64,000 nucleotides of DNA, from positions 744,001 to 808,000 of the forward strand of contig NZ_MVDG02000001.1 in assembly GCF_002008315.2 (NCBI RefSeq). Direction: 5' to 3'. The notes under the pieces are model-generated. The model searched no databases, had not been told where the DNA came from, and was given only the letters and a program-made list of their open reading frames with translations. Below are positions 762 to 55,239 of this stretch, piece by piece (within the stretch, counting starts at the first letter, position 1; every line of letters begins with the position of its first letter). The DNA comes from Arthrobacter sp. KBS0703 (lineage in GTDB: Bacteria > Actinomycetota > Actinomycetes > Actinomycetales > Micrococcaceae). The translations under genes were made by a program, and so were the position numbers.

Positions 762-1455
762 GTGGCCGCCAGAGACGACATCCTCACCCGCCCGCAGATC
801 GACGCTGCGCTCGCCGGCCTGCCCGACTGGCGCTACCGGCTCGGCGGCCTGGTCACCGTCTACAAGACGCCGACGGCGGCTTCCGCGCTTGAGCTGATCG
901 CCGCCGTCGGGCGCATTGCCGAGGACAGCAACCACCATCCCGACCTGGACTGGCGCTATAACCGCTTGTTCATCCGGTTCAGTTCCCACGACGCCGGCGG
1001 CGAGGTCACGCCGCGCGACGTCAACGCCGCGGCCGCGGTCTGCGACGCCGCAGCGGCTGCGGGAGCCCAGTCGGAGCCCGGCCTGTACCATCTAGATGTG
1101 TATAAGAGACAGGTACCGGACCGTGGAGATCGGGATCGACACCACGGACGCGGCGGAGATCTCCGAGGTCTGGCGAGTGGCCCTGGGCTACCGGAAGGGG
1201 CGGGACGGCGACCTGGCGGACCCCCACGGCCGCGGGCCGGGGCTATCGTTCCAGGAAACCGGCACTCCCAACGACAACCGCCTGCACGTGGACATCCACC
1301 GGTCCAAGGCCGAATCTGCGCCGGCCCTCGAGAAGACGGCGGCCACCGGCGCGTTAATGGACAGAGACCACGCACCCGGCCGGGTGGTGGTCACTGACGC
1401 CCAAGGGAACCGGCTATGCCTCTGCACTGAGGAAGGCACCGGGCCGGCAACCTAG
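762..1455 (+). pseudogene. Pterin-4a-carbinolamine dehydratase fused to a VOC/glyoxalase-like domain, split by an adapter junction
   Basis: The first part, from a GTG with AGGAG at 751-755, encodes a 4a-hydroxytetrahydrobiopterin dehydratase domain with the EDSNHHPDLDWRYN active-site segment. The second part, from about 1113 in a different frame, encodes a glyoxalase-like VOC domain (VEIGIDTTDAAEI through DAQGNRLCLCTEEG). Such dehydratase-VOC fusions occur in actinobacteria, so this was probably one protein of about 220 residues. The break coincides exactly with a Tn5 mosaic end at 1094-1112, which shifts the frame by one. I read it as an assembly artefact rather than a decayed gene. Substrate of the VOC part is unknown. 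Confidence 0.75.
1094..1112. other. Tn5/Nextera mosaic end, single copy (assembly artefact)
   Basis: Bases 1094-1112 are an exact 19-bp mosaic end (AGATGTGTATAAGAGACAG). Only ATCT of the opposite end remains just upstream (1090-1093), so this junction is trimmed compared with the six double copies elsewhere. It sits inside the dehydratase-VOC gene and changes its reading frame. Confidence 0.95.
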
Positions 1456-1468
1456 GAGCACCCGACTG

Positions 1469-1771
1469 CTAGATCTTCAGGGCAGCCGTCAGCCGCTGGG
1501 TGTCCTGCCGTGCACGGACCCTGCCCAGGTATATGGCGACTGCCACGGCAGCCGCGGTGCCGGCGATCATGGGAACAATCCACGGAATCCACGTGAGTCC
1601 CGGCTGGTAGCCGAGACCCGCCGTCATGCAGATGATCCAGGCAAGCATTCCCACCCCGGCAGCCACGCCCGCCGGGAGGAGAATGCCGTACTTGGCGTGA
1701 CGTTTGTCATTGGCCCAGACGATGAAGCCAGCAGCGACGGTCACCAGGAGCACAATAGCGAGGGACAGCAC
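1469..1771 (-). CDS. Small three-helix membrane protein, function unknown
   Basis: This 100-residue protein has three hydrophobic segments (about residues 2-18, 30-51 and 60-81) and a basic C-terminal tail (GRVRARQDTQR). It starts at a GTG preceded by GGAAGC and lies 8 bases after the DUF3107 gene, so it is probably the third gene of a TetR-DUF3107 operon. I do not recognise a family with a known function. Similar small integral proteins are common in actinobacterial operons. The gene converges with the dehydratase-VOC gene. Confidence 0.65.
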   Translation of the reverse strand: MLSLAIVLLVTVAAGFIVWANDKRHAKYGILLPAGVAAGVGMLAWIICMTAGLGYQPGLTWIPWIVPMIAGTAAAVAVAIYLGRVRARQDTQRLTAALKI

Positions 1772-1779
1772 GGTGCTTC

Positions 1780-2004
1780 CTACAGTGCGCCGAAGCCGAC
1801 CCGGCGGACTTCCTCGGCGCCGATTTCGACGTAGCCCAGGACGTTCGCGGGGATGATGATCTGCCGGCCCTTTTCGTCGGTCAGCCGCAGCTCAGTGCCT
1901 TTGGCGAGGGATTCCGCTACAACCTTGGCCACGGAGTCTGCATCCTGAGACGATTCCAGCACAATTTCGCGGCCGATGTTCTGAATGCCGATCTTTACTT
2001 CCAC
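1780..2004 (-). CDS. DUF3107 family protein
   Basis: This 74-residue cytoplasmic protein matches DUF3107, a small conserved actinobacterial family of unknown function. It opens with VEVKIGIQNIGREIVLES and ends with the conserved IPANVLGYVEIGAEEVRRVGFG. The GTG start is preceded by a clear GGGAGG. It lies between the TetR gene upstream and a small membrane protein downstream on the same strand. The family assignment rests on the characteristic sequence; the role is unknown. Confidence 0.8.
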   Translation of the reverse strand: MEVKIGIQNIGREIVLESSQDADSVAKVVAESLAKGTELRLTDEKGRQIIIPANVLGYVEIGAEEVRRVGFGAL

Positions 2005-2061
2005 AGCAAGGCCTCCCAGCCAATCAAAGTTGAAATTTCAAAGGTGTTCTTCCTTTGTAGT

Positions 2062-2730
2062 CTAGGACTCTTTGGGGAAGCGAGAGATTCCGCGCCAAGC
2101 TAAACGGTAGATGAGGTCACTGGCGACATCGAGGTCGAGATTGCCGTCCGTTTCGAGCCAGTAGCGTGCGCTGACCTGCGCCATCCCGGCGAGGCCGCGG
2201 CCGAGCAGCTGGGCCTCCAGGAGCGGCAGTTTGGTGTCTTCGGCGATGACCTGCGCGATGGCGTCCGCGAAGGCCTTGTTGAAGGTCTCAAGGCGCGCGC
2301 TGACGTCCGGATCGTTGACGAGGTCGGACTCGAACACGAGGCGGTGCGCCTGGTCGTCACTGTCAATGAACCGGTAGTAGGCGCGCATGACGGCCTGGAC
2401 GCGCTCCTTGTTGTCGGTGGTGGAGTTGAGCGCGCCCATCATGAGGTCGGTCAGGGTCCCGAGGTGGCTGTCCAGGAGCGCCAGGTAGAGCTCGCGTTTG
2501 GAGGGGAAGTGCTGGTACAGCACCGGTTTGCTCACGTGGGCCGTTTCGGCGATCTCGTCCATCGCGGCTCCGTGGTAGCCGTTGGCGACGAACACCTCCT
2601 GGGCGGCGGCCAGCAGCTGGGCCCTGCGCTCGTCCCGCGGCAGCCTGGCGGATCGCTGCCCTGCGGCCCGGGGGGTGCCGGCCGGGGAGTGCGCGGCCCG
2701 AGTTCGATCAACGGGTGCATGATGAACCAC
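2062..2730 (-). CDS. TetR/AcrR family transcriptional regulator
   Basis: The N-terminal helix-turn-helix is seen in RRAQLLAAAQEVFVANGYHGAAMDEIAETAHVSKPVLYQHFPSKRELYLALL (given in two pieces by position: about residues 35-86), followed by an all-helical ligand domain. I prefer the GTG at 2730 because AGAAGG lies 7 bases upstream; a longer version from GTG 2763 lacks a ribosome site and would overlap a candidate operator. It is divergent from moeZ with a short spacer and heads the DUF3107 operon, so it may regulate itself, moeZ or both. The ligand is unknown. Confidence 0.85.
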   Translation of the reverse strand: MVHHAPVDRTRAAHSPAGTPRAAGQRSARLPRDERRAQLLAAAQEVFVANGYHGAAMDEIAETAHVSKPVLYQHFPSKRELYLALLDSHLGTLTDLMMGALNSTTDNKERVQAVMRAYYRFIDSDDQAHRLVFESDLVNDPDVSARLETFNKAFADAIAQVIAEDTKLPLLEAQLLGRGLAGMAQVSARYWLETDGNLDLDVASDLIYRLAWRGISRFPKES

Positions 2731-2764
2731 GGTTGGCCTTCTTTCAATTGCTGTTAACTTCACT

Positions 2765-2778
2765 TTACCCGGGGGTAA
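2765..2778. promoter_or_regulatory. Candidate TetR operator
   Basis: TTACC at 2765-2769 and GGTAA at 2774-2778 form a perfect inverted repeat around CGGG, in the short gap between the divergent TetR gene and moeZ. Position and symmetry fit an autoregulatory site; no binding data are implied. Confidence 0.4.
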
Positions 2779-2814
2779 TATGACCGCGCGGTATCTTCAG
2801 GCATACATTGAAGT

Positions 2815-4014
2815 ATGGCTTCTCCGTCCACCGCAAATGCAGCACTCACCTCACTGGATCCCCTAGTTGATCCGGCACCCGGACTCTCGCCCGAGGAGGT
2901 GGAACGGTATTCCCGGCACCTCATCATTCCGGAGATCGGCGCGCTCGGCCAAAGGCGGCTGAAGAACGCGCGCGTCCTGGTGATCGGCGCCGGCGGACTC
3001 GGGTCTCCCGCTCTGCTCTACCTGGCCGCGGCCGGCGTCGGGACCATCGGAATCATTGACGACGACTCCGTTGACCTGAGCAACCTGCAACGCCAGATCA
3101 TCCACGGCGTCCAGGACGTCGGGCGTCCCAAGATCGAATCGGCGCGTGATGCGATTGCGGCGCTGAACCCGCTGGTCGACGTCAGGCTGCATGATGTCAG
3201 GCTCGACGCCACGAACGCCCTGGAGCTTTTTTCCGGCTACGACCTCATCCTGGACGGGGCGGACAACTTCGCCACCCGCTACCTCGTCAACGACGCCGCG
3301 GCGATCCTCGGCAAGCCCTACGTGTGGGGATCGATCTTCCGCTTCGACGGCCAGGTCAGCGTGTTCTGGGAACAGCACGGCCCCACCTACCGCGACCTGT
3401 ACCCGGAGGCGCCGCCGGCGGGTTCCGTGCCGTCGTGCGGCGAGGGCGGCGTTTTCGGGATGCTCTGCGCTGCCGTCGGGTCCCTCATGGTGACGGAGGC
3501 CGTAAAGCTGATCACCGGCGTCGGGCGTTCCCTGCTCGGCCGTGTGGCGTTGTATGACGCCCTGGGCGGCAGTTGGCGCGAGATCAGGGTGGCCAAGGAC
3601 CCCGCCGCCCCCCGGATCACGGAGCTGACGGATTATGAGGCCTTCTGCGGCATCACGCCCGCGGCGGCCACCGACACGGAACACACCATCACCGCAACGC
3701 AGTTGGCCACTATGCTCGCTTCGCGCGATGCCGGGCTCAAGGACTTCGAGCTCGTGGACGTCCGGGAGACCGGCGAGTACGACATCGTCCGGATTGACGG
3801 CTCCGTCCTGATTCCCCAGGGCAGGATCCTCGCGGGCGAGGCCTGGGGCGAGCTGCCGCAGGACAGGGACATCGTGTTCCACTGCAAGGCCGGGACACGG
3901 TCCGCAGCGGTGCTGGCAGCCGCGCAAAAGGCCGGCTACCAGCGCGTGAGCCATCTCGACGGCGGTATCCTCGCCTGGGTCAGGGACGTGGAGCCCCAGA
4001 AGCCCGTCTACTGA
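2815..4014 (+). CDS. moeZ: MoeZ-type adenylyltransferase/sulfurtransferase
   Basis: MoeZ activates the C-terminal glycines of small sulfur carriers (MoaD, ThiS, CysO) by adenylation and then sulfurates them, feeding molybdopterin, thiamine or cysteine synthesis. Residues 25-280 are an E1-like ThiF/MoeB domain with GAGGLGS at 58-64, DDDSVDLSNLQRQ at about 81-93 and a Cys at 208 in PSCGEGG. Residues 290-399 are a rhodanese domain whose catalytic Cys is at 357 in FHCKAGTRS. Length (399) is normal for the fused family. Nearby thiG fits a shared role in sulfur carrier chemistry. Confidence 0.93.
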   Translation: MASPSTANAALTSLDPLVDPAPGLSPEEVERYSRHLIIPEIGALGQRRLKNARVLVIGAGGLGSPALLYLAAAGVGTIGIIDDDSVDLSNLQRQIIHGVQDVGRPKIESARDAIAALNPLVDVRLHDVRLDATNALELFSGYDLILDGADNFATRYLVNDAAAILGKPYVWGSIFRFDGQVSVFWEQHGPTYRDLYPEAPPAGSVPSCGEGGVFGMLCAAVGSLMVTEAVKLITGVGRSLLGRVALYDALGGSWREIRVAKDPAAPRITELTDYEAFCGITPAAATDTEHTITATQLATMLASRDAGLKDFELVDVRETGEYDIVRIDGSVLIPQGRILAGEAWGELPQDRDIVFHCKAGTRSAAVLAAAQKAGYQRVSHLDGGILAWVRDVEPQKPVY

Positions 4015-4042
4015 CAGCGGCGCTGTCTTTCGGCGGGGCATG

Positions 4043-6391
4043 TCACGCCGCTACGACCGGGATGCGCCGGGACATGAGGACCTTCCCGGTGATCCAGTCC
4101 AGCAGGTTCACCGTCAGCGTGTAAGTCCCGGGTGCCGGCGGACGCAGCAGCATGTCGTAGCGCTCCGCTGCTCCGAAATTGATGATGCTGGTCCGCAGGG
4201 GGCCGGTGGCGGAAATCGGCCGTGCCGGCCCGGTCGGGCTTGACGTGTCGCGGAATGGCCGGCCGTCGTGCGCTATCAGTTCGGCCATGGCAACGCGCTT
4301 GCCGGCGGCGTCCGTGAAGTAGGCGGTGACGGGGAAATAGTTGGCGTTGAGCAGGCGGAGCAGCGTGGGTTTGACGGTGCCCCCTGCCATCCGGGCGCGG
4401 ATGCGGCTGAGGAAGATGGGGCCCTCTTTGTTCGGTACCGGGGCGAGTTCCCCTCCCAGCAGATAGAAGTGCCTGGCCTCGAACTTGTCCAGGCCCGCGT
4501 CATCCCCGGACAGCCCTGCAGCGTGGTTAAGCTCGTGCCAGCGGGGGTCCACCGAGTAGGGGACCAAGATCGTTTCGGTGTCGATGTCGTATTCCGGCCC
4601 GTCCACGAACGACCGCCGCGCACCCTTGGTCACGGGGTAGTCCGGATGGACCGCCGGATCGATGATCAGGGGGCCAAACATTCCCATTTGCACGTGCAGG
4701 GTGGTGTTGACGTGGCAGTGGTAGAAATACGTGCCGGACGCCCCCCTGTTCGGGTTGCCGGGCTGACCGGTTTCCGGCCGCCATTGATAGGTGTAGCTCC
4801 CCGACACCTCGAAGGAGGTGTGGCCCACGCCGTCGTTCCGCGGATCGGGTTCGATGCCGTGCCAGTGAACCGTATGGACCTTTTTGCTGGGGTGAATGGT
4901 CCCGTGGAATAGCTGGCCCTCGGTGATCCGGACCAAGGGCGCGGGGAAAATCCGGCCCGAGTTCTCGGTCTCGAACGTCCACATCTCGAATTCGCCGCCG
5001 TCGTCGAATTTCATCTTGCGGTTGAAGAACTTGAATTCGTGGGCCACGTCCGGCGTCTGGCGGAACTCCGTTGCGGGGCTTCCCTCATGCATTTGCTGTG
5101 AGCTGAAGTCGACCTGGCTGCGGAACAGCTCGTGCGATGCGGCGCCGGCAGCGGCCGGGCCCGGAGCTGCCAATGCCCAGTGGCCCACCAGCCCGCCGGG
5201 GTACATCCCGCCCTTTGCCACCTGCGACGGTTCGGCGTGGCAGTGCATCGGGTAGTCCCAGTCCTCTTTCCGGGCGTTCCACACCTCATCGATGGCCTCC
5301 GGCGGACGCCTCAACGGGAGCAACGAGTCTTTTCGGTCCAGGGGGTGCATCTCAATGACGTCCTCCCACTGCTGGAGCACGATGTGGCCGGCGGCGTCGA
5401 CCTTCCCGCCGGTTCGGGGGAACGGCGTTCCGTTCCGGTTCACGGTCCAGAGATGGTTTCCGTGGAAATGCAGTTGGTGGTGGACCACCCCGGCGTTGAG
5501 GAAACGCATGAGCTGACCCGTCGCGACAGTGCCGGCGGTGGCGCCCTTGCTGAAATTGCGGACGTCGATCTGGCGTGCGGACCCGGACATCAGGGTGTCC
5601 TCATCGCGGACGCGGTTCAGGGCCTCATCCGTGGACGCGGCCAGGGACTGGAAGCCGCTGCGGCCGTTGAGGGTGAAATACCGCGGATACACCGGTGTCT
5701 TGTCGGGGTCCACGGTTCCGTTGCGGGACGCGATGCCCGCCCACACGGGGTCGACGTTGTGGAGCATCCACACCCACTGCCGCTCGAATTCCGGCCCGTT
5801 CGTCGTGGGCAGCCACGGCGAGGCCGGGTCGGTGACCAGCAGGGCGCCAAAGAGGCCAAGAACCCGCTGGACGGGGTCGGCGGTCGGATCGGCCGGATCG
5901 GCACCGGGATCGCAATAGAGGTAGGTACCTGCCTTGGGGGCCTTGAATTGCAGTGTCTTGGTCTGGCCCGGTTTGATCACGCCGGTGCCGACATGGCCGT
6001 TCCCGGATCCGGCGTTCAGGAACTGCAGCGCATGCTCCTGGGCCAGATGGTTGGTCACGCGAATGCTGATGGTGCTGCCGGTTTCCGCGATCAGCGTACG
6101 GTCCGGGAAGAAGCTGGCCCAGTGTGCCCGGCGGACCAGGAATTCGCCGGGGTTGGCAGGGTCCTTGGCGGCGGGCGCAGGACGCCCCAAGGGCGGAACT
6201 GCGGCCTTGAGCGGGTAGGTGCGGCTCGCCACGACGATACCGTTCCGCAGGAATACGCGGGGGCTCACCGCGAGGCTCGGCCTAGGATCCGTGACGAGGG
6301 TCCGCCGGTCCCCGAATCCCCGGTGGTAGACGAGCGAGCCATCCACCATGGGCAGGAAGCCGTCGTTGATGTGCAGGTCCAGGGGGCTCAT
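4043..6391 (-). CDS. Large multicopper oxidase with unusual motif order
   Basis: A 782-residue multicopper oxidase that should couple substrate or metal oxidation to reduction of oxygen to water. Start ATG 6391 overlaps the stop of the upstream Tat gene (ATGA). A cupredoxin-like region at about 100-190 is followed by HQLHFHGNHLW (305-315) and MHCHAEPSQVAKGGMY (382-397), the pattern usually at the C-terminal end of a laccase. HTVHWHG (506-512) and YHCHVNTTLHVQMGMFG (557-573), the usual N-terminal pattern, come after it. There is no signal peptide, so export probably depends on the Tat partner. Substrate cannot be told from sequence. Confidence 0.85.
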   Translation of the reverse strand: MSPLDLHINDGFLPMVDGSLVYHRGFGDRRTLVTDPRPSLAVSPRVFLRNGIVVASRTYPLKAAVPPLGRPAPAAKDPANPGEFLVRRAHWASFFPDRTLIAETGSTISIRVTNHLAQEHALQFLNAGSGNGHVGTGVIKPGQTKTLQFKAPKAGTYLYCDPGADPADPTADPVQRVLGLFGALLVTDPASPWLPTTNGPEFERQWVWMLHNVDPVWAGIASRNGTVDPDKTPVYPRYFTLNGRSGFQSLAASTDEALNRVRDEDTLMSGSARQIDVRNFSKGATAGTVATGQLMRFLNAGVVHHQLHFHGNHLWTVNRNGTPFPRTGGKVDAAGHIVLQQWEDVIEMHPLDRKDSLLPLRRPPEAIDEVWNARKEDWDYPMHCHAEPSQVAKGGMYPGGLVGHWALAAPGPAAAGAASHELFRSQVDFSSQQMHEGSPATEFRQTPDVAHEFKFFNRKMKFDDGGEFEMWTFETENSGRIFPAPLVRITEGQLFHGTIHPSKKVHTVHWHGIEPDPRNDGVGHTSFEVSGSYTYQWRPETGQPGNPNRGASGTYFYHCHVNTTLHVQMGMFGPLIIDPAVHPDYPVTKGARRSFVDGPEYDIDTETILVPYSVDPRWHELNHAAGLSGDDAGLDKFEARHFYLLGGELAPVPNKEGPIFLSRIRARMAGGTVKPTLLRLLNANYFPVTAYFTDAAGKRVAMAELIAHDGRPFRDTSSPTGPARPISATGPLRTSIINFGAAERYDMLLRPPAPGTYTLTVNLLDWITGKVLMSRRIPVVAA

Positions 6392-7074
6392 GACTTCACC
6401 TGGGTTGCGGTCAGGAGCGGCAAGGCCAGGCTCATGCTCCCGTCCTGCTCCGGCTCGGAGTATTCGAGTTCCATGTCCAGGGCGTCGTGGGGCGCCAGGT
6501 AGCTGATCCAAAGACGCTCCGTGGCGCCGGCTGCTATGGCGCCGGGGCCCTTGTTGAAGTCCTGGGGCGTGACGGTGATGCCGGACGGCAACAGCTTCAG
6601 GCGAAGCTGGCCCGGGGCAAACAGAACGGGCTCGGGCCGGCTGTTGGTCAGGGCCACTTCGAGGAGGACGACATCGCCCCACGTGAAATTGGCCGGCTGC
6701 GGCCAGCCGGAATCCGGGAGGACTCCGCCGTCATGCGTATGGGCGGCAAGGCTGACCATGGGATCGCCGGGGGACCGCCGGGGCGCTCCGGACAATGAGG
6801 CCGCGGCACCAGACCCGGTAATGTGCGATGCGGCGGCAGCCAGCGACTTCGTTGCCGGCCGGCCCTGCGCGTCCAGTCGCGCCAAACGGCCCGCCTTAAC
6901 TACCGACAGGGAGCCGAAGGCCGTAGCGACCGGTTCGGCGCTGTTCGACGTGCTTCGCGAGACCACACCGTAGGTACCTCCGGCCGCGAGCAGCAAAGCC
7001 CCGCCGCCTACGATGAGGCCGAACTGCCTGCGGCTGAGGGCAGGGACTGTTTCTGCGGGCGGATTCGGCTTCAT
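6388..7074 (-). CDS. Tat-exported partner protein of the multicopper oxidase
   Basis: This 228-residue protein begins with a twin-arginine signal: LSRRQFGLIVGGGALLLAAGG at about residues 17-37. The rest (about 90-228) contains beta-rich segments such as WGDVVLLEVALTNSRPEPV and ATERLWISYLAPHDALDMELEYSEPE, resembling a small Ig- or cupredoxin-like fold without obvious copper ligands. It overlaps the oxidase start by four bases, so the two are translationally coupled. The likely role is as an exported subunit or carrier of the leaderless oxidase; this is inference. I do not recognise a named family. Confidence 0.7.
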   Translation of the reverse strand: MKPNPPAETVPALSRRQFGLIVGGGALLLAAGGTYGVVSRSTSNSAEPVATAFGSLSVVKAGRLARLDAQGRPATKSLAAAASHITGSGAAASLSGAPRRSPGDPMVSLAAHTHDGGVLPDSGWPQPANFTWGDVVLLEVALTNSRPEPVLFAPGQLRLKLLPSGITVTPQDFNKGPGAIAAGATERLWISYLAPHDALDMELEYSEPEQDGSMSLALPLLTATQVKS

Positions 7075-7173
7075 TGTCGCACCCCTTATTCGCATTCACG
7101 GACAGGTTCAATGCTGTCCGGGAAGCCTATGGAAAGGTTGGGCGTGCGGCCCCTCTGATCGGGGCGGAGGAAC

Positions 7174-9780: not shown

Positions 9781-11271
9781 GTGGCCGCGGGCAATCCTCC
9801 GGCTGCCGGACGCACGGCCCTGGTGGTGGGGGGCGGCATCTCCGGCCTCATGGCCGCGAGGGAACTGGCCCGGGCCGGCCTCCGCACCACGCTGCTTGAA
9901 GCCACTGACGCCTGGGGCGGCTGCGTCGGCCGCCATGAGGTCGCCGGGCTGACGCTGGACAGCGGTGCCGAATCCTTCGCCACGCGCTCCAGCGCCGTGG
10001 CTGAGCTCGCCGCGGAACTGGGTCTGGCCGAAAATATTGTGGGCCCCCATCCCGGCGGGGCGTGGGTGCAGCTGCCGGACGGTCCGCGCGAGCTTCCCAA
10101 GACGGGCGTGCTCGGCATCCCGGCGAATCCGTGGGATCCGGAAGTGCGCCGGTCGCTGGGGCTGAGGGGCTCCCTCCGCGCCTCGCTGGACAAGTTCCTG
10201 CCGTCCTCCGTGGGCACCACGGCGGACGTCTCGAGCGTCTCCGCCCTGGTGAGGGCCAGGATGGGCCGCCGGGTCCTCGAACGGCTCGTCGAGCCGGTGG
10301 TGGGCGGCGTCCACTCGGCCGATCCCGGGTTGCTGGACGTCGACATGGTGGCTCCGGGGCTCCGCGCGGGGATCGCCCGGCATGGGTCGCTGGCCGCCGC
10401 CGTCGCCGCCCAGCGCAAGGGTTCGGGCTGTCTCTTATACACATCTAGATGTGTATAAGAGACAGGGTTCCGGCGGCGAGGGGACTGCGGCCAAGGCCGG
10501 CTCCGCCGTCGCCCGGCTTGACGGGCGGCATGCACACGCTGGTTGCCGCCCTCGTGGCGGATCTTCGCCCGGCGCGGCGTGGAGCTGGTGCCCGGCACCC
10601 GTGCCGACGCCGCGGCCCGGACGCCGGGCGGATGGCTGATTGCGGCTCACGGGAAAACGTACGACGCCGATGTGCTGGTGGTCGCGCTCGACGGGCCTTC
10701 CGCCGTCGGGCTCCTCGAGGATGCGGTGCCGGCCCTGGCCGGCCACCGGCCCGCCCGGGGCCGGAGGTCAAGCTTGTGACACTAGTTGTGGACCTCCCTG
10801 AACTGGACGCGCGACCGCGCGGAACGGGAATCCTGGTGGCCCCGCAAACCGCCGGAATCCGGGCCAAGGCGCTTACGCACGCCACGGCCAAGTGGGACTG
10901 GCTCGCTGCGGAGGCGGGGCAGGGCAGGCACGTCCTGAGGCTGTCGTACGGGTGCCGGGACAGTGGCGGCCCGGGCGGGCCGGCGCCGGCTGCGGGACCG
11001 GATGCTGCCCTGCGTGACATCGCCTTGCAGGACGCGTCAGCCCTGCTGACTGTTCCTGTCAAGGCTGAGAACCTGGCGGGCTGGGACGTGGTCTCCTGGG
11101 CCGGGCGCCCTTCCGTTTGCGGCCGTCGGTCACCGGCAGCGGGTGGAGGACGTCCGCAGAATATGCTCCGGCAGCCAGGATCTTCTGATGGTGGGCGGGT
11201 GGCTCGCGGGCAACGGCCTCGCGGCCGTGGTGGCTGACACCCGGACGCAGCTGCGGGCGTTCCTGCAGTAG
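9781..11271 (+). pseudogene. hemY: Coproporphyrinogen III oxidase CgoX/HemY, broken by an adapter junction and several frameshifts
   Basis: The gene encodes the FAD enzyme that oxidises coproporphyrinogen III to coproporphyrin III. The GTG-started N-terminal part has the dinucleotide fold VVGGGISGLMAARELARAG and the conserved SGAESFATRS. After the junction at 10428-10465 the family sequence continues but changes frame at about 10511 (SAVA to GLTGGMHTL), 10575, 10757 and 11100, ending in LPFAAVGHRQRVEDV and LMVGGWLAGNGL. Each shift is a one- or two-base indel. All parts are conserved, so I think errors in the assembly, not gene decay, explain the break. It lies between hemE and a secreted protein gene upstream of hemQ-hemH. 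Confidence 0.85.
10428..10465. other. Double Tn5/Nextera mosaic end junction in cgoX/hemY
   Basis: Bases 10428-10446 (CTGTCTCTTATACACATCT) and 10447-10465 (AGATGTGTATAAGAGACAG) are two perfect mosaic ends joined without spacer. No transposase or target-site duplication is present. Confidence 0.97.
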
Positions 11272-15379: not shown

Positions 15380-16373
15380 ATGGGACAGGTGAACCGGCAG
15401 GGTCCGGAAGGCAACCCCGCCGGACTTCCAGGCGCGCGGCGCCCGCTCGAGGGGGCCCGCATCCTCATCACGCGGAACCCGGACCGCGCGGAAACGCTCG
15501 CGGCGGAACTCCGGCTGGCCGGAGCCGAACCGCTCCTGCTGCCGCTCACCGATGTCGAACGTGCCAGGGACCAAGACGCCCTCGATGACGCTTTCGACGC
15601 CTTGGGTGCAGGGCGTTTCGCGTGGCTCGTGGTCAGCAGCGCCACCACCGTCCTGGCGCTTGCAGAGACAGCCGCGGCGCGGACTGTGGCCCTCAGCGGG
15701 TGGATTCCGCAGTCAACCCGCGTGGCAGCAGTGGGGCCGGCGACCCTGGACGCCCTGCAGTCCGCCGGGATCACCGTGCATTTTGTCCCCAAGCAGGGGC
15801 ACTCGGCCGCCGGGCTGGCGGCCGAGTGGCCGGGCGGACCCTGTGACGTCCTGCTGCCGCAGGCTGACATCGCGGCTCCCGCCCTGGCACGGGGGCTCGA
15901 GGCGAAGGGCGCCCGGGTCCGGACCGTGGTGGCCTATCACACGGTGGACTATCCGGCCGCGCGGGACCGCCGCCTCGCGTCGTCCGCCATGAACACCGGT
16001 GCCGGGAGCGGCAGCTTGCCGGTGCTCACACCCGACGCCGCCAAAGGAGCGGTAGCGTCCGGCGGCGTGGCCGCCGTCGTGTCTCTTATACACATCTAGA
16101 TGTGTATAAGAGACAGGCGCTGCGCGCCGCATTTCCGCCGAGCTCGCCCCGCTGGGGGCCTGCCGGTTCGTGGCGATCGGAAAAGCAACGGCTGCCGAGG
16201 CAGAAGGCCGGGGCCTGACGGTGGCGGCCACAGCGCGTGAAGCCACGCCGGACGGCCTCGTGGACGCAGTCATCCGTGCACTGCACCCCGAACCGGACAA
16301 AGCCCCGGCCGCCGGCACCCGTTCCCATAGCGGGTCCCCAGACATCCATTCATCAGCACCAGGCACCCAGTGA
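15380..16373 (+). pseudogene. hemD: Uroporphyrinogen-III synthase, split by an adapter junction
   Basis: HemD closes hydroxymethylbilane with inversion of ring D. The N-terminal part (GARILITRNPDRAETLAAELRLAG, then VVSSATTVLAL and VAAVGPATLDAL) is a typical HemD fold. It is interrupted at 16080 by joined mosaic ends. The continuation at 16117 (with [34 protein letters not shown]) lies in a different frame and ends at 16373, ten bases before hemB. The expected linking segment around VFTSGSAVRR-type residues is missing, so real bases are probably lost here. It follows hemC directly in the operon. Confidence 0.85.
16080..16116. other. Double Tn5/Nextera mosaic end junction in hemD
   Basis: Two mosaic ends meet tail to tail at 16098/16099; the first base of the left end (C) is replaced by G at 16079, so 37 of 38 bases match. 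The junction lies inside hemD and shifts its frame. Confidence 0.97.
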
Positions 16374-27607: not shown

Positions 27608-30600
27608 GCCGCCCCGCAGACGTTCCGGCCCCCAGGTTCAGCCCCGAAGAGCTGTCCCTCCTGCTCGGCGAGAAGAACCTGCCCACCGCCGAACAGTCGG
27701 CCATCATCTCCTCGCCGCTGACCCCCAGGCTTGTCATTGCCGGGGCGGGATCGGGCAAGACCGCCACCATGGCCGACCGCGTCGTGTGGCTGGTCGCCAA
27801 CGGCTGGGTAAAGCCGGAAGAAGTCCTCGGTGTCACCTTCACCCGCAAAGCCGCGGGTGAACTGGCAAGCCGCATCCGGGCGAAGCTTGCGTCGCTGCAG
27901 CGGATCGCGGAAGCCGACGCCGGCAACGCGCTGTTCCCGGCCGGCCTGCTCAGCGCCGACGCGCTGGAACCGAAGGTCTCCACGTACCACTCGTTTGCCA
28001 GCGGCATCGTGTCCGACTACGGCCTGCGGCTCGGCATCGAACGGGACGTCGTCCTGCTGGGCGGCGCCCAGGCCTGGCAGCTGGCAACCGAGGTCGTCGA
28101 GGCGTTCGACGGCGACTATTCGCATTTCCGGGTAGCCAAGTCAACGCTCGTCAAGGCCGTCATTCAGCTCGCCGGTGAGTGCGCGGAGCATCTCCAGGAC
28201 CCGGCCGAGGTTCACGACTGGCTCATGCAGCGGCTGGCCGAATTCGACGCGGTGCCCTATGTGGCAGAGACCAAGAAGAACCCGAGCCAGGCCGCCGGTG
28301 AACTGGGCGCCATGCTGCGCACGCGGGCCAGCGTTGCGGAGCTCGTGGGCCGGTACTCCGAGGCCAAAAGGGGCCGGGGGGCCCTCGACTTCGGCGACCT
28401 CGTGGCGCTCGCCGCCAGGGTGGCCCGCGAGATTACCCTCGCCGCGGAGATGGAACGCCAACGCTACAGGGTGGTGCTTCTGGACGAATTCCAGGACACA
28501 TCGCACGCGCAGTTGGTCCTCTTCTCCAGGCTGTTCGGAGACGGCCACGCCGTCACGGCCGTAGGCGACCCCAACCAGTCCATTTACGGCTTCCGCGGCG
28601 CGTCCGCCGGCCAGCTGTTCCACTTTGTCAGCGAATTCCCGGTCCGGCTGGATGACGGGGAGGAAGGGCAGGCCCGGTTTAGCCCGGCCCCAACCTCCTA
28701 CCTGACCACCGCCTGGCGGAACGGGCGGAACATCCTGGCGGCGGCCAACGTCATTTCGGCTCCGCTGAGCGCCGCTGCCGCTCAGGCGGGTCCCGCCGGA
28801 GAACGGGCTTCAGCCGCGTCCGTCGAGGTGCCGCCGCTGCAGCCCAGTCCGGCCGCAGTTCAGGGCCGGGTAATCCTTGGACGCTTCGCCACGGACGAGG
28901 ACGAAGCCGCCGCCATCGCACGGGACCTGCTCAAATACCGGGTCACCGATTTCGAGCCATCAACAACTGCAGCGCCTGTTCCGCCGGCCATGGCAGTGCT
29001 GTGCCGCCGCCGCGCCCAGATGGAGTGCATCCGGCGGGAGTTTGAGGCCCAAGGCATTCCCTATGAAATCGTGGGTCTCGGCGGCCTGCTGGACACGCCC
29101 GAAATCGTGGACCTGGTGGCGACGCTCCGGGTCCTCGCCGACCCCGGCAGGTCGGATTCCCTGATGCGGCTGCTCGCCGGTGCACGCTGGCGGATCGGCA
29201 CCGCCGACCTCATGGCGTTTCGAGACTGGTCGGCGTTCCTTGCGCGGCGCCGCGGACAGAGCGCGGCCGATGCCGCGGCCGCGGGCGGGACGGACGAGCC
29301 GCCCGTCGGCGTCGTCATCGAGGGTGACCTGACCGATGCTGTCTCTTATACACATCTAGATGTGTATAAGAGACAGGCCCTGGACTGGCTGCCCAAGGAG
29401 GGCTGGACGTCAGCACACGGCCGCACGCTGACAGCCCCCGCTCGGGAACGGCTGCACAGGCTGGGCACGGAACTCAGGCAGCTGCGCGGACTGCTGGGGG
29501 AGGACCTGACCACGCTCCTCGGGGAGGTGGAGCGAGCAATGCTGCTCGACATCGAGGTTGCAGCCCGTCCCGGGTTCAGCATCCACCACGCGCGGAGGAA
29601 CCTGGATGCGTTCCAGGACGCGGCCGCGGGATTCCTGCAAACGTCCCACCGCGTGGACGTCCTCGCATTCCTGTCATGGCTCGAAGCCGCAGCCGCCGAG
29701 GAAGGCGGCCTGGACGTTCCCCCGGCAGACGTCAACCATGAGGCTGTCCAGCTGTTGACCGTGCACGCATCAAAAGGGCTCGAATGGGACGTGGTCTTTG
29801 TTCCGGGCCTCAACGCCGGAGCCTTCCCGAGCAGCCGTGATTCCCGGTGGAGCAGCGGTTCCGCTGCACTGCCCTGGCCCCTTCGCGGCGACCGTGCCGA
29901 CCTTCCGCAATGGGATATCGACCAGCCGGACCAGAAGGGGTGGCTGGACGCCGAGAAGGACTTCAAGGGCGCCGTCCAGGCCCACGGCGAAGCCGAGGAA
30001 CGGCGGCTGGCCTATGTCGCCTACACGCGGGCCAAACACGTCCTCTGGGTTTCCAGCGGAGCGTGGGTCGGTGGCCGCAGCGGAATGGCGGAGATGTCGC
30101 CGTTCCTCGCCGAGCTGGGGCCGCTCGCCGGCATCGGAACCGCCGGAGGCGCCCGTCCGGCACAGGACGCCGCAGCCGAGATCCACCCCGGCTCGGTGGA
30201 GGAGGAATCCCTGCCGGACGAAAGTCCCCTGACGCGCGACCTTGAGGTCGCAGTCTGGCCGTACGATCCCCTCGAGGGCCCTGTTGACCCGCGCACCGGC
30301 AAGCGGCTCCGGCTCGTTCCCGGCCGGCGGGCGGCCATGGACTCCGCCGCGGTCCGGCTGCGGACCGAAATATCGGCTATCCGGGAGCTGGCCTTAGAGG
30401 GAGAGCCGGAGCAGCCGGATCCCGCGGACCGGCCGCGAACTCCGCTCCGTCCCTACGCCGCCGGTTGGGCGCGGGAGGCCGCCCTGCTCCTGGAGCGCCG
30501 CGCCCGCCGTGCTCAAAGCCGGGACGTCCACCTGCCCGGGCACATTTCCGCATCCACGCTCGTTGACCTCGGGGAGGATCCCGGGGCTGTCCTGCAGCGC

Positions 30601-33801: not shown

Positions 33802-35953
33802 GTGACTACAGAAATTCCTGACGGCAACGACTCCCTGGAGGACCGCATCCTCGGCGGCCTCGACGCCGAACAGCGGGAGGTGGCCAGCACCCTGACCGGC
33901 CCGCTCTGCGTTCTCGCGGGGGCCGGAACCGGCAAGACCCGTGCCATCACGCACCGGATCGCCTACGGAGTGCATTCCGGGGTATACAGTCCGCAGCGGC
34001 TGCTGGCGGTCACCTTCACGGCACGTGCTGCCGCGGAAATGCGCAGCAGGCTGCGTGACCTCGGCGTCGGCAACGTCCAGGCCCGGACGTTCCACGCCGC
34101 GGCGCTTCGGCAACTCCAGTTTTTCTGGCCGCAGGCTGTCGGCGGGACACTGCCAAACCTTCTGGACCACAAAGCACAGATGATCGCCGAGGCCGCCCGC
34201 CGGCTGCGGCTCAGCACGGACCGGGCGTCCATCAGGGATTTGGCGTCGGAGATCGAGTGGGCCAAGGTGTCCATGCTGACGCCGGCCAACTATCTGGAGA
34301 ACGCCCAGGACCGGGGCAACCCCGGAGGCTTCGACCTCACCGCCGTCGCCCGGGTCTTCCAGTCATACGAGGACGTCAAGACCGACCGCAACGTCATCGA
34401 CTTCGAGGACGTCCTGTTGATTACCGTGGGCATCCTCCAGGAAGACCCGAAGGTCGCCGCCACGGTCCGGGAACAGTATCGGCATTTCGTCGTGGACGAG
34501 TACCAGGACGTGTCCCCGCTGCAGCAACGCCTCCTGGAGCTGTGGCTGGGCGGCCGGGATGAACTGTGCGTGGTGGGCGATGCCAGCCAGACCATCTATT
34601 CGTTCACCGGCGCGTCCCCCCGCCATCTGCTCGGCTTCAAGGCCCTGTATCCGAACGCCAACGTGGTCAAGCTGATCCGCGACTACCGCTCCACGCCCCA
34701 GGTGGTAAAGCTGGCCAATGACCTCCTGGCGGCCCGCCGCAGCGGAGGCCCGGCCGCGGACGCCGCGTGGGCGGCGCCGCTGAAGCTGGTTGCGCAGCGG
34801 AACGCCGGACCGGCGCCGCAGTTCACCGAGTGCTCGGACGACGAAGCCGAGGCTGCCACAGTCGCCGCCAAGATCCGCGGCCTGCTCGACGCCGGCACGC
34901 CGGCCAGCCAAATCGCCATCCTGTTCCGCACCAACGGGCAGTCCGAGGCCTACGAGCAGGCCCTGGCCTCCGCGGGAATCGGCTACCAGCTGCGCGGTGG
35001 CGAACGGTTCTTCGCCCGCAAGGAAGTGCGCGACGCCATCCTCCAGCTGCGCGCGGCCACCCGCGCCGTCGCGGAGTGTCTCTTATACACATCTCGATGT
35101 GTATAAGAGACAGGGCCAGCTCGTCCGCGACATCGTTGCATCGCTGGGGTACACGGACGCCGCCCCCCACAGCGGAGGCGCGCTGCGCGAGCGCTGGGAA
35201 TCCCTGGCGGCCCTGGTGGCCCTGGCGGATGAGCTCGTGCTGAGCCGCGGCCCGCAGTTCAGCCTCTCGGACTTCGTCAACGAGCTCCAGGAGCGGTCGC
35301 TGGCCCAGCACGCGCCCACGGTGCAGGGCGTCACGCTGGCGTCACTGCACGCCGCAAAAGGCCTGGAGTGGGATGCCGTGTTCCTGGTGGGGCTGAGCGA
35401 AGGGCTCATGCCCATTTCGTTCGCCGATACTGCGGAGGCTGTGGACGAGGAACGCCGCCTGCTGTACGTCGGCATAACCCGTGCGCGCGAGCACCTGGCG
35501 CTGTCCTGGTCCACCGCGCGGACACCGGGCGGCCGCGCCAACCGGAAACCGTCACGCTTCCTGGACGGACTCCGGCCCGACTCCGTGGCAAGTTCCAGCG
35601 CCCGCGGCAAGGGACCGTTGCCCAAGCGGAAGGCAGCCACGCCCGCGTCCTGCCGGGTCTGCGGCAGCATGCTGGCCAGCGGCGCCGAACGGAAGGTGGG
35701 CCGCTGCAGCCAATGCCCGCCCACCTACGAGGAGCAAACCTTCAACGCGCTCCGGGAGTGGCGCAAGGAAGTCGCGTTGTCGGCCGAAGTTCCGGCCTTC
35801 GTGGTCTTCACCGATGCAACCCTCACCGCGATTGCCGAAGCGCGGCCGGTGTCGCTCGAGGAACTGGCCCGCCTCGCCGGCGTCGGCCCCTCCAAACTGG
35901 AGAAGTACGGCGAAGCCGTCCTGGCGGTCCTGGTGGAAAGCACCACGCTCTGA
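33802..35953 (+). pseudogene. uvrD2: UvrD2-type DNA helicase, split by an adapter junction
   Basis: UvrD2 is a superfamily 1 3'-5' helicase of actinobacterial repair. The first part has Walker A GAGTGKT (40-46), VVDEYQDV (near 230), GDASQTIYSFTGAS and GGERFFARKEVRDAI. After the junction at 35077-35113 the sequence continues in another frame with LASLHAAKGLEWDAVFLVGL, DEERRLLYVGITRARE, a Cys4 zinc element (CRVCGSMLA...CSQCP) and a C-terminal HRDC domain (LARLAGVGPSKLEKYGEAVL). The Cys4-HRDC tail identifies UvrD2 rather than UvrD1. It starts at GTG 33802 and overlaps the next gene by one base. Probably intact in the organism. Confidence 0.88.
35077..35113. other. Double Tn5/Nextera mosaic end junction in uvrD2, with one mismatch
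   Basis: This junction has the same structure as the others, but the first base of the right end is C (35095) instead of A, and the first C of the left end is lacking (G at 35076). It shifts the uvrD2 frame. Confidence 0.96.
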
Positions 35954-48475: not shown

Positions 48476-48794
48476 GGCAACCCTTCAGCACACCTGCGAC
48501 TGTATCGGGACGAACAGTCGTCTCAGAACGCAGCAGCGCCCCCACGCCGGGTGTAAAGCCGCAGGTCGCTGTGGCAATTCTTCTTGATTCTATGGTGCAC
48601 CAATGGGGCCGTCCACCGCAGGGAATATGCCACCAGCGAAAAGCGCTCAAGAGCCAGGACGACGCCCCGGCTGCGGCTTGGCGCCCCTCGGAAGGGCGGT
48701 CGCGGCGCACATTCAGGAACCTCCCAGCAAACATCGATTTTAGTTTCAGTCGAATCGTCCATAGTTAATACAGACGAGGATGAAAGGAAGTCCA
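48476..48794. other. Divergent promoter region between the TPM gene and htrA
   Basis: This 319-base gap must hold the promoters for both genes. AT-rich patches lie at 48581-48602 (TTCTTGATTCTATGG) and 48735-48770 (ATCGATTTTAGTTTC and CATAGTTAATACAG), the latter being the likely core promoter of htrA. I saw no gene or strong hairpin. Confidence 0.4.
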
Positions 48795-50474: not shown

Positions 50475-50512
50475 GACAGCAGCAGAACAGCAGCGGAAGC
50501 AGCAAGCAGTAG

Positions 50513-50560
50513 CGGCGGGCCGCGCCTCCCAGACGATGGACAGCGAGGCGCGGCCCGCCG
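50513..50560 (+). terminator. Perfect 16-bp stem-loop after htrA
   Basis: CGGCGGGCCGCGCCTC (50513-50528) pairs exactly with GAGGCGCGGCCCGCCG (50545-50560) across a 16-base loop. No T tract follows; it is a likely terminator-like hairpin for htrA. Confidence 0.65.
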
Positions 50561-50750
50561 TCGTACGCGGAAGAACCTCGCCGCTTCCAATGCAACGGCC
50601 CTCTGACACAGGCGTTAACGGGGCGTCATCGGGCCGCCCCTATATGGTTAGCTAGGAGCTACCCGTATCCCGGGCGTTCCGCGGCCATGACCTCACCCGG
50701 CTGGCTATCCACAAGCATGGAAGGCTGCTGTAAATACAGTGGAAGAGACA

Positions 50751-51551
50751 TTGAAGATCATCGTCCTGGTCAAGCATGTGCCGGACGCGCAGTTTGACCG
50801 GCACCTCAGCGGCGAGGGCCACACCACGGACCGCGATGAGAGCATTCTGTCCGAGCTGGATGAATACGCCCTGGAAGCCGCACTGCAGCTCACCGAGGCG
50901 CGCGGCGGAAGCAAGGCGGGCAACAAGGTCATCGCCCTCAGCATGGGCCCGGCCGGCGCCGTGAATGCCATCAAGAAGTCCCTCCAGATCGGAGCGTCCG
51001 AAGGCGTCCACCTCACGGACGAGGCACTCGCCGGCTCTGACGCAGCCGCCACCTCGCTGGCGCTCGCCGCCGCGATCCGCCATCTCGGCGCGGACACCCC
51101 GGTGGACCTGGTCCTGACCGGCATGGCATCCACCGACGGCGAAACGTCACTCGTTCCGGCCCAGCTCGCTGAGCGCCTCGGCCTGCCGCAGGTGACTTTC
51201 GCGTCGTCGCTGGATGTTGACGGGGGACGCATCACCGCCCGCCGCGACGCCGACACGCACTCGGAGACGGTCGAAGCCCCGCTGCCAGCAGTGGTGTCGG
51301 TGACGGACCAGATCAACGAGCCCCGCTACCCCAACTTCAAGGGCATCATCGCGGCCAAGCGCAAGAGCATCACCACACTGTCGCTGGCGGACGTTGGAGT
51401 GGATCCCTCCCAGGTGGGCCACGCCGGATCCTGGACCACGGTGACTTCGGCTGAGGAACGCCCGCCGCGCACCGCGGGCACCATCATCACCGACGAAGGC
51501 GACGCCGGCATCAAGCTGGTTGACTTCCTGGCCGCACAGAAGCTGCTCTAA
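50751..51551 (+). CDS. etfB: Electron transfer flavoprotein beta subunit
   Basis: EtfB binds AMP and, with EtfA, carries electrons from acyl-CoA and other dehydrogenases to the respiratory chain. The TTG at 50751 (GGAAGAG upstream) gives the usual start MKIIVLVKHVPDAQFDRHL; a GTG at 50739 would add four residues. The motif LTGMASTDGETSLVPAQLAERLGLPQVTFAS (about 120-150) and the PNFKGIIAAKRKSI recognition loop are typical. Length 266 is normal. etfA follows after 15 bases in the same operon. Confidence 0.94.
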   Translation: MKIIVLVKHVPDAQFDRHLSGEGHTTDRDESILSELDEYALEAALQLTEARGGSKAGNKVIALSMGPAGAVNAIKKSLQIGASEGVHLTDEALAGSDAAATSLALAAAIRHLGADTPVDLVLTGMASTDGETSLVPAQLAERLGLPQVTFASSLDVDGGRITARRDADTHSETVEAPLPAVVSVTDQINEPRYPNFKGIIAAKRKSITTLSLADVGVDPSQVGHAGSWTTVTSAEERPPRTAGTIITDEGDAGIKLVDFLAAQKLL

Positions 51552-51566
51552 GAGGGATCACACAAC

Positions 51567-52520
51567 ATGGCAAACGTACTGGTATTCATTGACAACCCCG
51601 GCCAGGCTCTGAAGAAGAGCAGCCTTGAACTCCTCACCATCGCCCGTTCCCTCGGGGAGACGGCCGTGGCCGTCAACGGCGAACTGCACGACGGCGTCGC
51701 AGCCTCCCTCGGTGAGCACGGGGCCGTTGCCGTCTACCGGCCCTCCGCGCAGGACCTTGATGACTATCTCGTGGCGCCCAAGGCAGCTTTCGTGGCGGCG
51801 GCGGCCGACAAGTCCGGCGCCACCGCGGTGCTGGTTGAAAATTCGCCTGAGGGCAAGGAAATCGCGGCGCGGCTCGGGATCCGCCTCAGCGCAGGCGTAA
51901 TCACTGACGTCGTTGCCGTCGACCCCGACGGCACCGCCCGCAAATCAGTGCTGGCAGGTTCCTACACCACCGCGGCTAAGGCGACCACGCCGGTCAGCGT
52001 GCTGACGGTCAAGGCCAACAGCGTCACCCCCGAACCGGCCGCGGCGCCCAGCACCCCCGAAACAGTGACGGTTGACGTGCCTGCCGACGCCACTGCTTCG
52101 GCAGCGCGCATCACGGCCCGGGAACAGAAGGCCGTCAGCGGCCGCCCGGACCTCACCGACGCGCGGATCGTGGTGGCCGGCGGACGGGGGCTTGACGGCG
52201 ACTTCGGCCCGGTGGAGGACCTGGCAGACGCGCTGGGTGCTGCCGTGGGCGCATCGCGGGCGGCAACAGACGCCGGCTGGATCAGCCACGACGCCCAGGT
52301 CGGCCAGACCGGCAAGACCGTATCCCCGCAGCTGTACATTTCGGCAGGCATCTCCGGCGCCATCCAGCAGAAGGCCGGCATGCAGACGGCGAAGGTGATC
52401 GTGGCCGTCAACAAGGACGCGGAATCTCCCGTCTTCGAAATCGCTGACTTCGGCATTATCGGGGATCTCTTCCAGGTCCTGCCGCAGGCGACGGAAGAAA
52501 TCAAGAAGCGCAAGGGCTGA
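51567..52520 (+). CDS. etfA: Electron transfer flavoprotein alpha subunit
   Basis: EtfA binds FAD and passes electrons on to the quinone oxidoreductase. The 317-residue protein starts [19 protein letters not shown]. The FAD-binding C-terminal half has [39 protein letters not shown] (about 196-234), then [29 protein letters not shown] and [21 protein letters not shown], all family hallmarks. It follows etfB and precedes the PIG-L deacetylase by four bases, suggesting one transcript. Confidence 0.95.
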
Positions 52521-52524
52521 GTCC

Positions 52525-53304
52525 TTGACTTCAAACGCTGCTCCGGCACAGAGCCCGTTCAACCCGGACAAGCACCGGGTTGAGCGGGTGCTCTGTTTCG
52601 CCGCCCATCCGGACGACATCGACTTTGGCGCTGCCGGGACCATCGCCGCGTGGACGGCAGCCGGCGTCGAGGTGAGCTACTGCATCATGACGGACGGCGA
52701 TGCCGGCGGTTTCGATCCGGCCCACCGGGCCGAAATCATCGCCATGAGGGCCGCCGAGCAGCAGCGTGCCGCAGCGCTCGTCGGCGTCACCGACATCCAC
52801 TATCTGCACGAGCGGGACGGATTCCTGGAACCGAACCACCAGGTGATGTGGGGAGTGGTGAAGCTGATCCGCGAAATCCGCCCCGACGTCGTGCTTTCCA
52901 TGCATCCGGAACGCAACTGGAACCGCATCCAGAAAAGCCACCCCGACCACCTGGCCGTCGGGGAAGCGGTGACCCGGGCCGTCTACCCGGCCGTGGAAAA
53001 CCCGTACGCGTATCCGGAACTGGCCGAATCCGGCCTCGAGGCCTACAAGGTGCCGTGGCTGTGGCTCTATGCCGGGCCGGAGGAACGCGAAAACCACTTC
53101 ACCGACGTCACGGAGCACGTGGACAGCAAGCTCGGGGCGATCCACGTCCATGTCAGCCAGCACCCCGACGTCGAGGCCATGGAGGCTGCCGTGCGCAACG
53201 GAATGCAGGTCAACGCACGGCGCGCGGGTTTGCCGGACGGCCGCAGCGCGGAGGCATTCCACGTCGTAACAATCAACGGGCCGGGCACGATCGCGGGCTT
53301 CTAG
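52525..53304 (+). CDS. PIG-L/LmbE-type deacetylase
   Basis: This 259-residue protein is a zinc N-deacetylase of the LmbE family. The metal motif is [18 protein letters not shown] (near 29-46), with [24 protein letters not shown] (near 131-154) supplying the third ligand. Members include the mycothiol enzymes MshB and Mca, but the size and context do not prove either. It starts at TTG 52525, four bases after the etfA stop, so it is cotranscribed with etfBA. The substrate is unknown; a thiol- or sugar-linked amide is plausible. Confidence 0.85.
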
Positions 53305-53306
53305 TA

Positions 53307-53335
53307 TTGCCACACTGTAACCCGTGTCATATGCT
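53307..53335 (+). promoter_or_regulatory. Promoter of the gluconate genes
   Basis: TTGCCA at 53307-53312 and TATGCT at 53330-53335 are 17 bases apart, a good vegetative promoter for gntK-gntP. Transcription would begin near 53341, giving a 37-base AT-rich leader before the CAGGAAGG ribosome site. Confidence 0.65.
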
Positions 53336-53377
53336 TGCCTCTGTTTAAATCATATTTATTCAGGAAGGCAGACTTTG

Positions 53378-53917
53378 ATGGCGAAGACTGCACAGCAGCC
53401 GGTCCTGGTGATCATGGGCGTCTCAGGATCCGGCAAATCAACAGTGGCCGGCGTTGTGTCCGGCAAGCTCGGCTGGGACCTCGCGGAAGGCGACGACCTG
53501 CACCCTGCGGCAAACGTGGCCAAGATGCAGGCCGGCGAACCCCTCACCGATGACGACCGTTGGCCGTGGCTGGAAACCATTGCTGACTGGATCCGGCACC
53601 ACACCCAGGCCGGCACTCCGGGCGTTATCACGTGCTCAGCGCTCAAGAAGCGGTACCGTGATGTGCTCCGGGGCGAAAATGTCGTGTTCGTGTTTCTTCA
53701 GGGCAGCAAGGACAACATCTCGGGCCGGCTTGCCTCACGGCACGGACACTTCATGCCTCCGGCCCTGCTCGAATCGCAGTTCGAGGCGCTGGAAGAACCC
53801 ACCGAGGATGAAAACTACATCGCCCTGTGCGTCTCGGCCACCCCGGCCGAGGAGGCCCAGGAAATCATTGAACGACTGAATCTCGCAGCTGCCTCCGCCG
53901 CTCCGGATCAGAACTAG
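53378..53917 (+). CDS. gntK: Gluconokinase
   Basis: GntK phosphorylates gluconate to 6-phosphogluconate for the pentose phosphate pathway. The 179-residue protein has Walker A MGVSGSGKST at residues 13-22, the conserved AEGDDLHPAANVAKMQAGEPLTDDDRWPWL (about 35-64), TCSALKKRYRDVLRG and RHGHFMPPALLESQF. The ATG at 53378 has AGGAAGG upstream. It comes nine bases before the permease gntP, so uptake and phosphorylation are made together; a promoter with an AT-rich leader lies directly upstream. No GntR gene is in the window. Confidence 0.94.
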   Translation: MAKTAQQPVLVIMGVSGSGKSTVAGVVSGKLGWDLAEGDDLHPAANVAKMQAGEPLTDDDRWPWLETIADWIRHHTQAGTPGVITCSALKKRYRDVLRGENVVFVFLQGSKDNISGRLASRHGHFMPPALLESQFEALEEPTEDENYIALCVSATPAEEAQEIIERLNLAAASAAPDQN

Positions 53918-55033
53918 GAACTTACCTTGAACTCTCGCATTGCAACGCAGCTACCCGCTGCCGTCGAAGGCTGGACAGGCCACGACACCCAGCTGCTGGT
54001 TGTGGCTGGCCTCGGCATTGCCCTCATCGTGGTGCTGATCGCCAAGCTCAAGCTGCACCCCTTCCTCGCACTCGTGCTGGGCTCGGCCTTCGTGGGCCTG
54101 GCATCCGGCGTCGAGCTGCCCAAGATCATCACCAACTTCGAGGAGGGAGTAGGCGGCGTCCTCAAAGAAGTCGGACTGCTGATCGCCCTGGGCGCCATGC
54201 TGGGAAAGCTCCTGGCAGACTCCGGCGGCGCGAACCGGGTGGTGGACACCCTGTTGGAGAAGGCAAGCGGCAACAAGGTGGTCTGGTCCATCACGCTCGT
54301 GGCCGTCATCATCGGGCTGCCGATGTTCTTCGAGATCGGCCTGGTCCTCCTGCTCCCCGTGGTGGTCCTGGTTACCCAGCGCTCCCGCATGCCCTTGATG
54401 CGCATTGCCATTCCGGCGCTGGCCGGCCTGTCCGTGCTCCATGGCCTAGTGCCTCCGCACCCGGGCCCGTTGATCGCCATTAGCGCTGTCAAGGCCGAGC
54501 TGGGCACCACGCTGGCCCTGGGCCTGCTGGTGGCCATACCTACGGTCATCATCTGCGGACCGCTGTTTTCCCGGCTGGCGGCCAAATGGGTTCCCGTCGG
54601 CGCGCCGGCGGTTGCGGGCGGCATCGACACGGAGCACGGCGCGGACACGACGGGCGTCAAGCGCCAGCCGACGTTCCTCGTCACCCTGCTGACCATCATC
54701 TTCCCCGTGGTGCTGATGCTCGCCAAGGCAATCGTGGACATCATCTGGCCGGACCCCCAGACCGCACCGCCGGTCCGGATCTTCTTCGACTTCGTCGGCC
54801 AGCCCCTCGTGGCCATGACCCTCGCGGTGCTCCTGGCCATCGTCACCTTCGGCTACGCCGTGGGCTTCACCGGAAACCGGATCACGTCCAAGATCGGCGC
54901 GAGCCTCGGGCCCATCGCGGCCATCCTGCTCATTGTGGGTGCGGGCGGCGGCTTCAAGCAGACCCTGATCGGCGCGGGAGTCGGCGACGCCGTCAAGAAG
55001 TGGGCTGAAGGCACCAACATGTCGGTGCTGGTC

Positions 55034-55071
55034 CTGTCTCTTATACACATCTAGATGTGTATAAGAGACAG
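55034..55071. other. Double Tn5/Nextera mosaic end junction in gntP (first)
   Basis: Two perfect 19-bp ends meet at 55052/55053 inside a helix of GntP; about 3-5 expected codons are not present. Confidence 0.97.
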
Positions 55072-55201
55072 TTGCGCTGCGGCTGGCCACCGGCTCCGCG
55101 ACGGTGGCCACGGTGACGGCGGCCGGAATCGTCGCGCCGCTGGCGGCTCGCTGAGCCCCACCCATGCCGCGCTGCTGGCCTTGGCGATCGGTGCAGGGTC
55201 A

Positions 55202-55239
55202 CTGTCTCTTATACACATCTAGATGTGTATAAGAGACAG
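55202..55239. other. Double Tn5/Nextera mosaic end junction in gntP (second)
   Basis: Two perfect ends meet at 55220/55221, only 130 bases after the first gntP junction; the bases between were probably one short fragment. Roughly nine expected codons are missing here. Confidence 0.97.

Follow-up and report, generated by a model that had tools for sequence, protein, structure and literature searches.

The window analysed here (64,000 bases, positions 744001–808000 of a 4.42-Mb contig in the 4.86-Mb, 37-contig genome of Arthrobacter sp. KBS0703) contains seven blocks that represent, with a probability of about 0.97, untrimmed leftovers of the Nextera mate-pair circularisation junction, which is 38 bases long. 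That the repeated 38-mer is an assembly artefact and not biology, and that the genes concerned are broken on paper only, was confirmed. The 19-base mosaic end (ME) matches the window 13 times at up to three mismatches, compared to no match in 100 shuffles, and these 13 matches group into seven blocks: one truncated and six tail-to-tail pairs (Table 1). In all six pairs the ends abut directly, with no cargo between them. Four of the seven blocks comprise the exact 38-base palindrome, i.e., two MEs joined blunt, tail to tail and without spacer, while two have one or two letters changed and one is truncated. The original prediction had listed seven ME junctions, each inside a conserved gene; all seven were found and all seven lie within recognisable genes. 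One correction is required, as the blocks at 16080 and 35077 comprise 37 letters and the latter is altered at 35095 as well.

Table 1. Mate-pair junction blocks and the intervening genomic island in the window (positions relative to the first base of the window).
Feature	Position	Strand	Remarks
Truncated junction	1090..1112	.	ATCT (final four letters of left ME) at 1090-1093, full right ME at 1094-1112
Full 38-mer junction	10428..10465	.	FAD amine-oxidase family gene
37-letter junction	16080..16116	.	Outer C of left ME changed to G at 16079; uroporphyrinogen-III synthase
Full 38-mer junction	29339..29376	.	RecB/UvrD-like helicase-nuclease
37-letter junction	35077..35113	.	Outer C changed to G at 35076; C for A at 35095 (centre); UvrD-type helicase
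Full 38-mer junction	55034..55071	.	gntP
Genomic island, 130 bases, between two junctions	55072..55201	.	gntP
Full 38-mer junction	55202..55239	.	gntP

The identical 38 letters are described in PMC7357533 as a biotin-labelled ring adapter for circularising fragments, and the Skewer paper outlines the Nextera long mate-pair protocol as tagmentation, circularisation and a junction adapter. The interpretation as mate-pair junction adapters, first proposed from the letters of the window, is upheld by the exact 38-mer, its genome-wide count, its near-absence in relatives, the Tn5-biased edges and the lack of 9-base duplications in 49 sampled junctions. It is further backed by flanks that are collinear in relatives and by identical 38-mers in other genomes.

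Throughout the 4.86-Mb genome, the exact ME was detected 342 times in forward and 339 times in reverse orientation, and 336 junction cores of 36 bases were found at up to two mismatches, 314 of which are exact. Among 111 ME contexts from stretches of the host's own genome, the mirror ME follows directly in 98 and is missing in 13. A 400-kb sample, consisting of 20 stretches of 20 kb taken in even steps from 1.29 to 3.02 Mb, comprises 22 ME entries, namely 14 pairs and 8 that were called single by script, some of the latter being damaged pairs. A supposed junction-free region between 1.3 and 3.0 Mb was rejected: sites occur in the 20 stretches of this sample, of which 18 fall entirely within the range. 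The stretches read (window and sampled stretches) are free of N letters. The blocks are clustered: of the 94 spacings between neighbours in a set of 95 of the 336 sites, reaching to 1.297 Mb, 18 are below 500 bases, while 3.35 would be expected (Poisson p 2e-8). For 29 blocks, the G+C content within 100 bases averages 0.718, compared to 0.649 at random positions in the stretches that hold them (p 3e-12). At L183:6358-6439, two damaged adapters surround some 20 bases of genomic sequence, which is a more scrambled form of the artefact. The genome is graded as a 99.99% complete species genome, yet more than 300 adapter junctions lie inside it; such a completeness score gives no sign of them.

The edges of the junctions carry a signature of their own. 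From 294 outward flanks of 147 junctions in other genomes, we found the favoured bases beside the ME to be G, T, any, T/C, A/T, A/G, any, weakly A, and C, a pattern resembling the Nextera motif GTNYWRNAC that PMC8224930 cites. We trained a 9-position score model on 140 complete junctions from these other genomes and applied it to 41 complete junctions (82 flanks) in the host genome. At the edge the mean score was 0.34, compared to −1.18 (sd 0.23, maximum −0.66) at offsets 12–90 (Wilcoxon p 6e-8). The junction edges are Tn5 tagmentation cuts.

To determine what was lost or gained at each block, its two flanks were aligned separately against relatives in a multiple alignment. The flanks are collinear with those of the relatives at all seven blocks, and the number of missing bases ranges from −8 to +29. 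At 16080, 15 bases are missing (4/4 relatives concur), at 29339 it is 17 (5/5), at 55034 it is 19 and at 55202 it is 29 (11/11 relatives each), while the figure for 35077 is 18 compared to three relatives or 21 compared to two others. Nothing is lost at 1094, where a 5-base flanking repeat, GTACC, is present in comparison with one relative, nor at 10428, where about eight flank bases are repeated inexactly (three relatives), the latter figure being uncertain. We treat both of these repeats as overlaps of two cut ends. Thus, the earlier assertion that real codons are missing and that adapters replaced true sequence applies to five blocks, with 15–29 bases lost, and fails for the blocks at 1094 and 10428, where bases are repeated. 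The genomic island between the two gntP junctions is one base shorter than in 11/11 relatives and consequently the sequence near the junctions is itself unreliable. Rough figures from BLAST end extension (about 24 bases missing at 16080, 11 at 29339 compared to genome G028, and about 11 repeated at 10428) were dropped in favour of the multiple alignment.

Alternatively, a Tn5-derived mini-element might really have inserted into the DNA of the living strain, or left scars there on excision. In favour of this, hyperactive Tn5 transposase recognises the ME (PMC11075570) and the flanks do show the Tn5 target preference. However, Tn5 insertion generates a 9-base target repeat (PMC11075570), and an exact flanking repeat of at least four bases was found in none of the 49 distinct paired junctions sampled out of the 336 (from the window, 30 loci and the 20 sampled stretches), where nine bases would be expected. 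The blocks at 1094 and 35077 stand outside these 49 because the count required an intact core. The longest exact flank repeat in the 49 junctions is three bases, near the level of re-paired flanks; from this we conclude that no transposon is present. A transposon would, in addition, carry DNA between its inverted ends and leave its target without loss, whereas here the ends abut and 15–29 bases are lost at five blocks. Hundreds of copies, broken genes such as hemD, and the identical 38-mer in at least 19 other named genomes argue against real Tn5 insertion as well. Within those other genomes, flank repeats of 5 to 39 bases do occur in 14 of 147 junctions, one of them being 9 bases long, and their mixed length is better explained by overlapping contig ends than by transposition. 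Taken together, we consider real insertion or excision to be extremely improbable.

Two further scenarios keep the artefact and change the library behind it. Ordinary Nextera paired-end adapter read-through could have left contigs that each end in one ME and were later abutted, and the single MEs at contig ends of a congener (see below) would suit such an origin. Yet the ME followed by one of the two Nextera paired-end tails gave no match in the whole genome at up to two mismatches, and both tails are absent from the window and the loci examined. Moreover, in the 98 of 111 ME contexts the mirror ME stands exactly next, without overlap or spacer, which suggests a ligated junction and not two abutted ends. 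We hence regard paired-end read-through as very unlikely. The same low standing is given to a library made without tagmentation, in which sheared fragments are circularised by ligating a ring adapter to them: the ring adapter of PMC7357533 is the same 38-mer and would deliver the observed letters, but ends produced by shearing should lack the Tn5 cutting preference found at the edges, and it is this preference that tells tagmentation apart from a sheared-and-ligated ring library.

How the Nextera mate-pair junctions came to lie inside scaffolds might be envisioned as follows. Ordinary coverage may have failed in G+C-rich pockets, and the resulting scaffold gaps could have been closed with untrimmed mate-pair reads, each side being extended to a different Tn5 cut. 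Both extensions would then have reached the palindromic adapter and merged through it, and this merging would have lost or repeated the few bases between two unrelated cut sites. A whole junction read would join places that are kilobases apart; this is not seen at the seven blocks. Several observations stand against parts of this explanation. In Nextera XT data of E. coli, G+C content was unlinked to low coverage (PMC8224930), a result that counts against the G+C-linked coverage step, while the authors of that study point out that E. coli has few G+C-rich stretches. Against the adapter explanation as such count the damaged or single blocks (8 of the 22 ME entries from the sampled 400 kb; the 13 of 111 ME contexts without mirror), as do the 5-base repeat at 1094 and the repeats in 14/147 junctions of other genomes.

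All seven blocks of the window lie in genes. They introduce false stops and frameshifts, create a false peptide and make genes look like pseudogenes. By family match, the truncated block at 1090..1112 causes a frameshift in a pterin-4a-carbinolamine dehydratase family gene, an FAD amine-oxidase family gene beside hemE has its open frame ended by the block at 10428, the block at 16080 terminates the frame of uroporphyrinogen-III synthase (hemD) and the block at 35077 shifts the frame of a UvrD-type helicase. The gene at 10428 is probably protoporphyrinogen oxidase, a name that we infer. Six-frame reading further suggests a second frame change soon after this block, at about 10540–10590 of the window. 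The block at 29339 resides inside a RecB/UvrD-like helicase-nuclease, where VSYTHLDVYKRQ is read through in an open frame, the net gain of 21 bases leaving the frame open. Both remaining blocks, 55034 and 55202, fall within a single gene, that of a GntP gluconate permease. The aligned gene product of genome G028 crosses 29339 in a single frame and shifts frame at 35077; this frame comparison is informative for 29339, 35077 and gntP, while the genes at 1094, 10428 and 16080 were assigned from family matches and six-frame reading.

The 38-mer is open in one of its three frames, which reads VSYTHLDVYKRQ (12 residues). Among the seven blocks, 29339 alone carries this false peptide in the true frame. 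At 1094 a shortened version, YHLDVYKRQ, is followed by out-of-frame sequence, and the other five blocks hit a stop within the adapter, leaving tails such as LSLIHI or CLLYTSRCV. The expectation that proteins from this region carry YTHLDVYKRQ holds in the true frame at 29339 alone. The false peptide was present in 0/120 helicase relatives listed out of 580 found; the window's own false protein is outside those 120. Among the listed homologues of one window protein for which an organism is given, most come from Arthrobacter.

The same contamination was detected beyond the host strain. When the exact ME was searched in 59 genomes (the host and 58 relatives), it was present only in the host and in one congener, G014, the other 57 relatives being without it. 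Six of the seven MEs of this congener lie at the very start or end of a contig (contigs C73, C140, C172, C175 and C196; loci L032, L036, L038 and L040). Such single MEs at contig ends represent contamination of this kind in its unmerged state, as expected before merging. In a sample of 396 genomes of the host's phylum, two gave a match, the host included. The exact 38-mer was found in at least 120 stretches of named genomes, representing at least 19 other organisms (hand count, by title), among them Enterococcus sp. 10A9_DIV0425, Ideonella sp. MAG2, Scytonema tolypothrichoides and, as a 'complete sequence', Tenericutes bacterium MO-XQ. Three of these at least 19 genomes are titled as chromosomes, and one of the three carries the title 'complete sequence'. 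Five of 72,556 plasmid records (NZ_CP032357.1, NZ_MT039157.1, NZ_KY978628.1, NZ_MF589339.1 and NZ_MF918372.1) contain it as well, while neither the phage collection nor the collection of complete E. coli genomes gave a match to the 38-mer. In locus L074, from Olsenella massiliensis SIT9, about 20 bases separate an ME from a stub of TruSeq adapter. As the same adapter occurs in at least 19 other named genomes and five plasmid records, studies of gene loss, pseudogenes or repeats can be misled.

With regard to protein databases, an out-of-frame stretch around 10428 was used as a probe (E up to 10) against proteins of about 55–175 residues. From 238 candidates, 70 proteins were obtained, and VSYTHLDVYKRQ is present in all 70. 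A Pfam domain, from varied families, is found in 29 of the 70, and 67 of them derive from contigs under 5 kb. Since VSYTHLDVYKRQ is the sole open reading of the junction and occurs in proteins with unrelated domains, we propose that it marks false protein sequences throughout public databases and has received little notice, a proposal for which we consider the odds to be even. If it is true, one text search for VSYTHLDVYKRQ could flag contaminated genomes and proteins. No publication retrieved with the string 'VYKRQ', in that spelling alone, has contamination as the subject of its title. The biological interest of the artefact verdict is low, its practical interest moderate.

The junctions can be compared to three known systems. 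Adapter contamination of microbial genome databases has been published by Moeller et al. (2024; PMC11536531), the main text of which contains neither 'Nextera' nor 'mate pair'. In both cases untrimmed sequencing adapter remains in published assemblies. However, the contaminants reported there are Illumina universal adapters concentrated at contig ends, whereas ME junctions inside scaffolds are found here. In vitro EZ-Tn5 insertion fusions (PMC11075570) share the 19-base recognition sequence and the translated tail DVYKRQ with the blocks described here, but they are genuine constructs that contain cargo and a 9-base target repeat. The third system is the Nextera mate-pair junction adapter itself. 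While it should be trimmed from reads and here lies within a long scaffold, and while both flanks here derive from one place and not from places kilobases apart, the 38 letters are identical, palindromic and composed of blunt-joined MEs with Tn5-cut edges.
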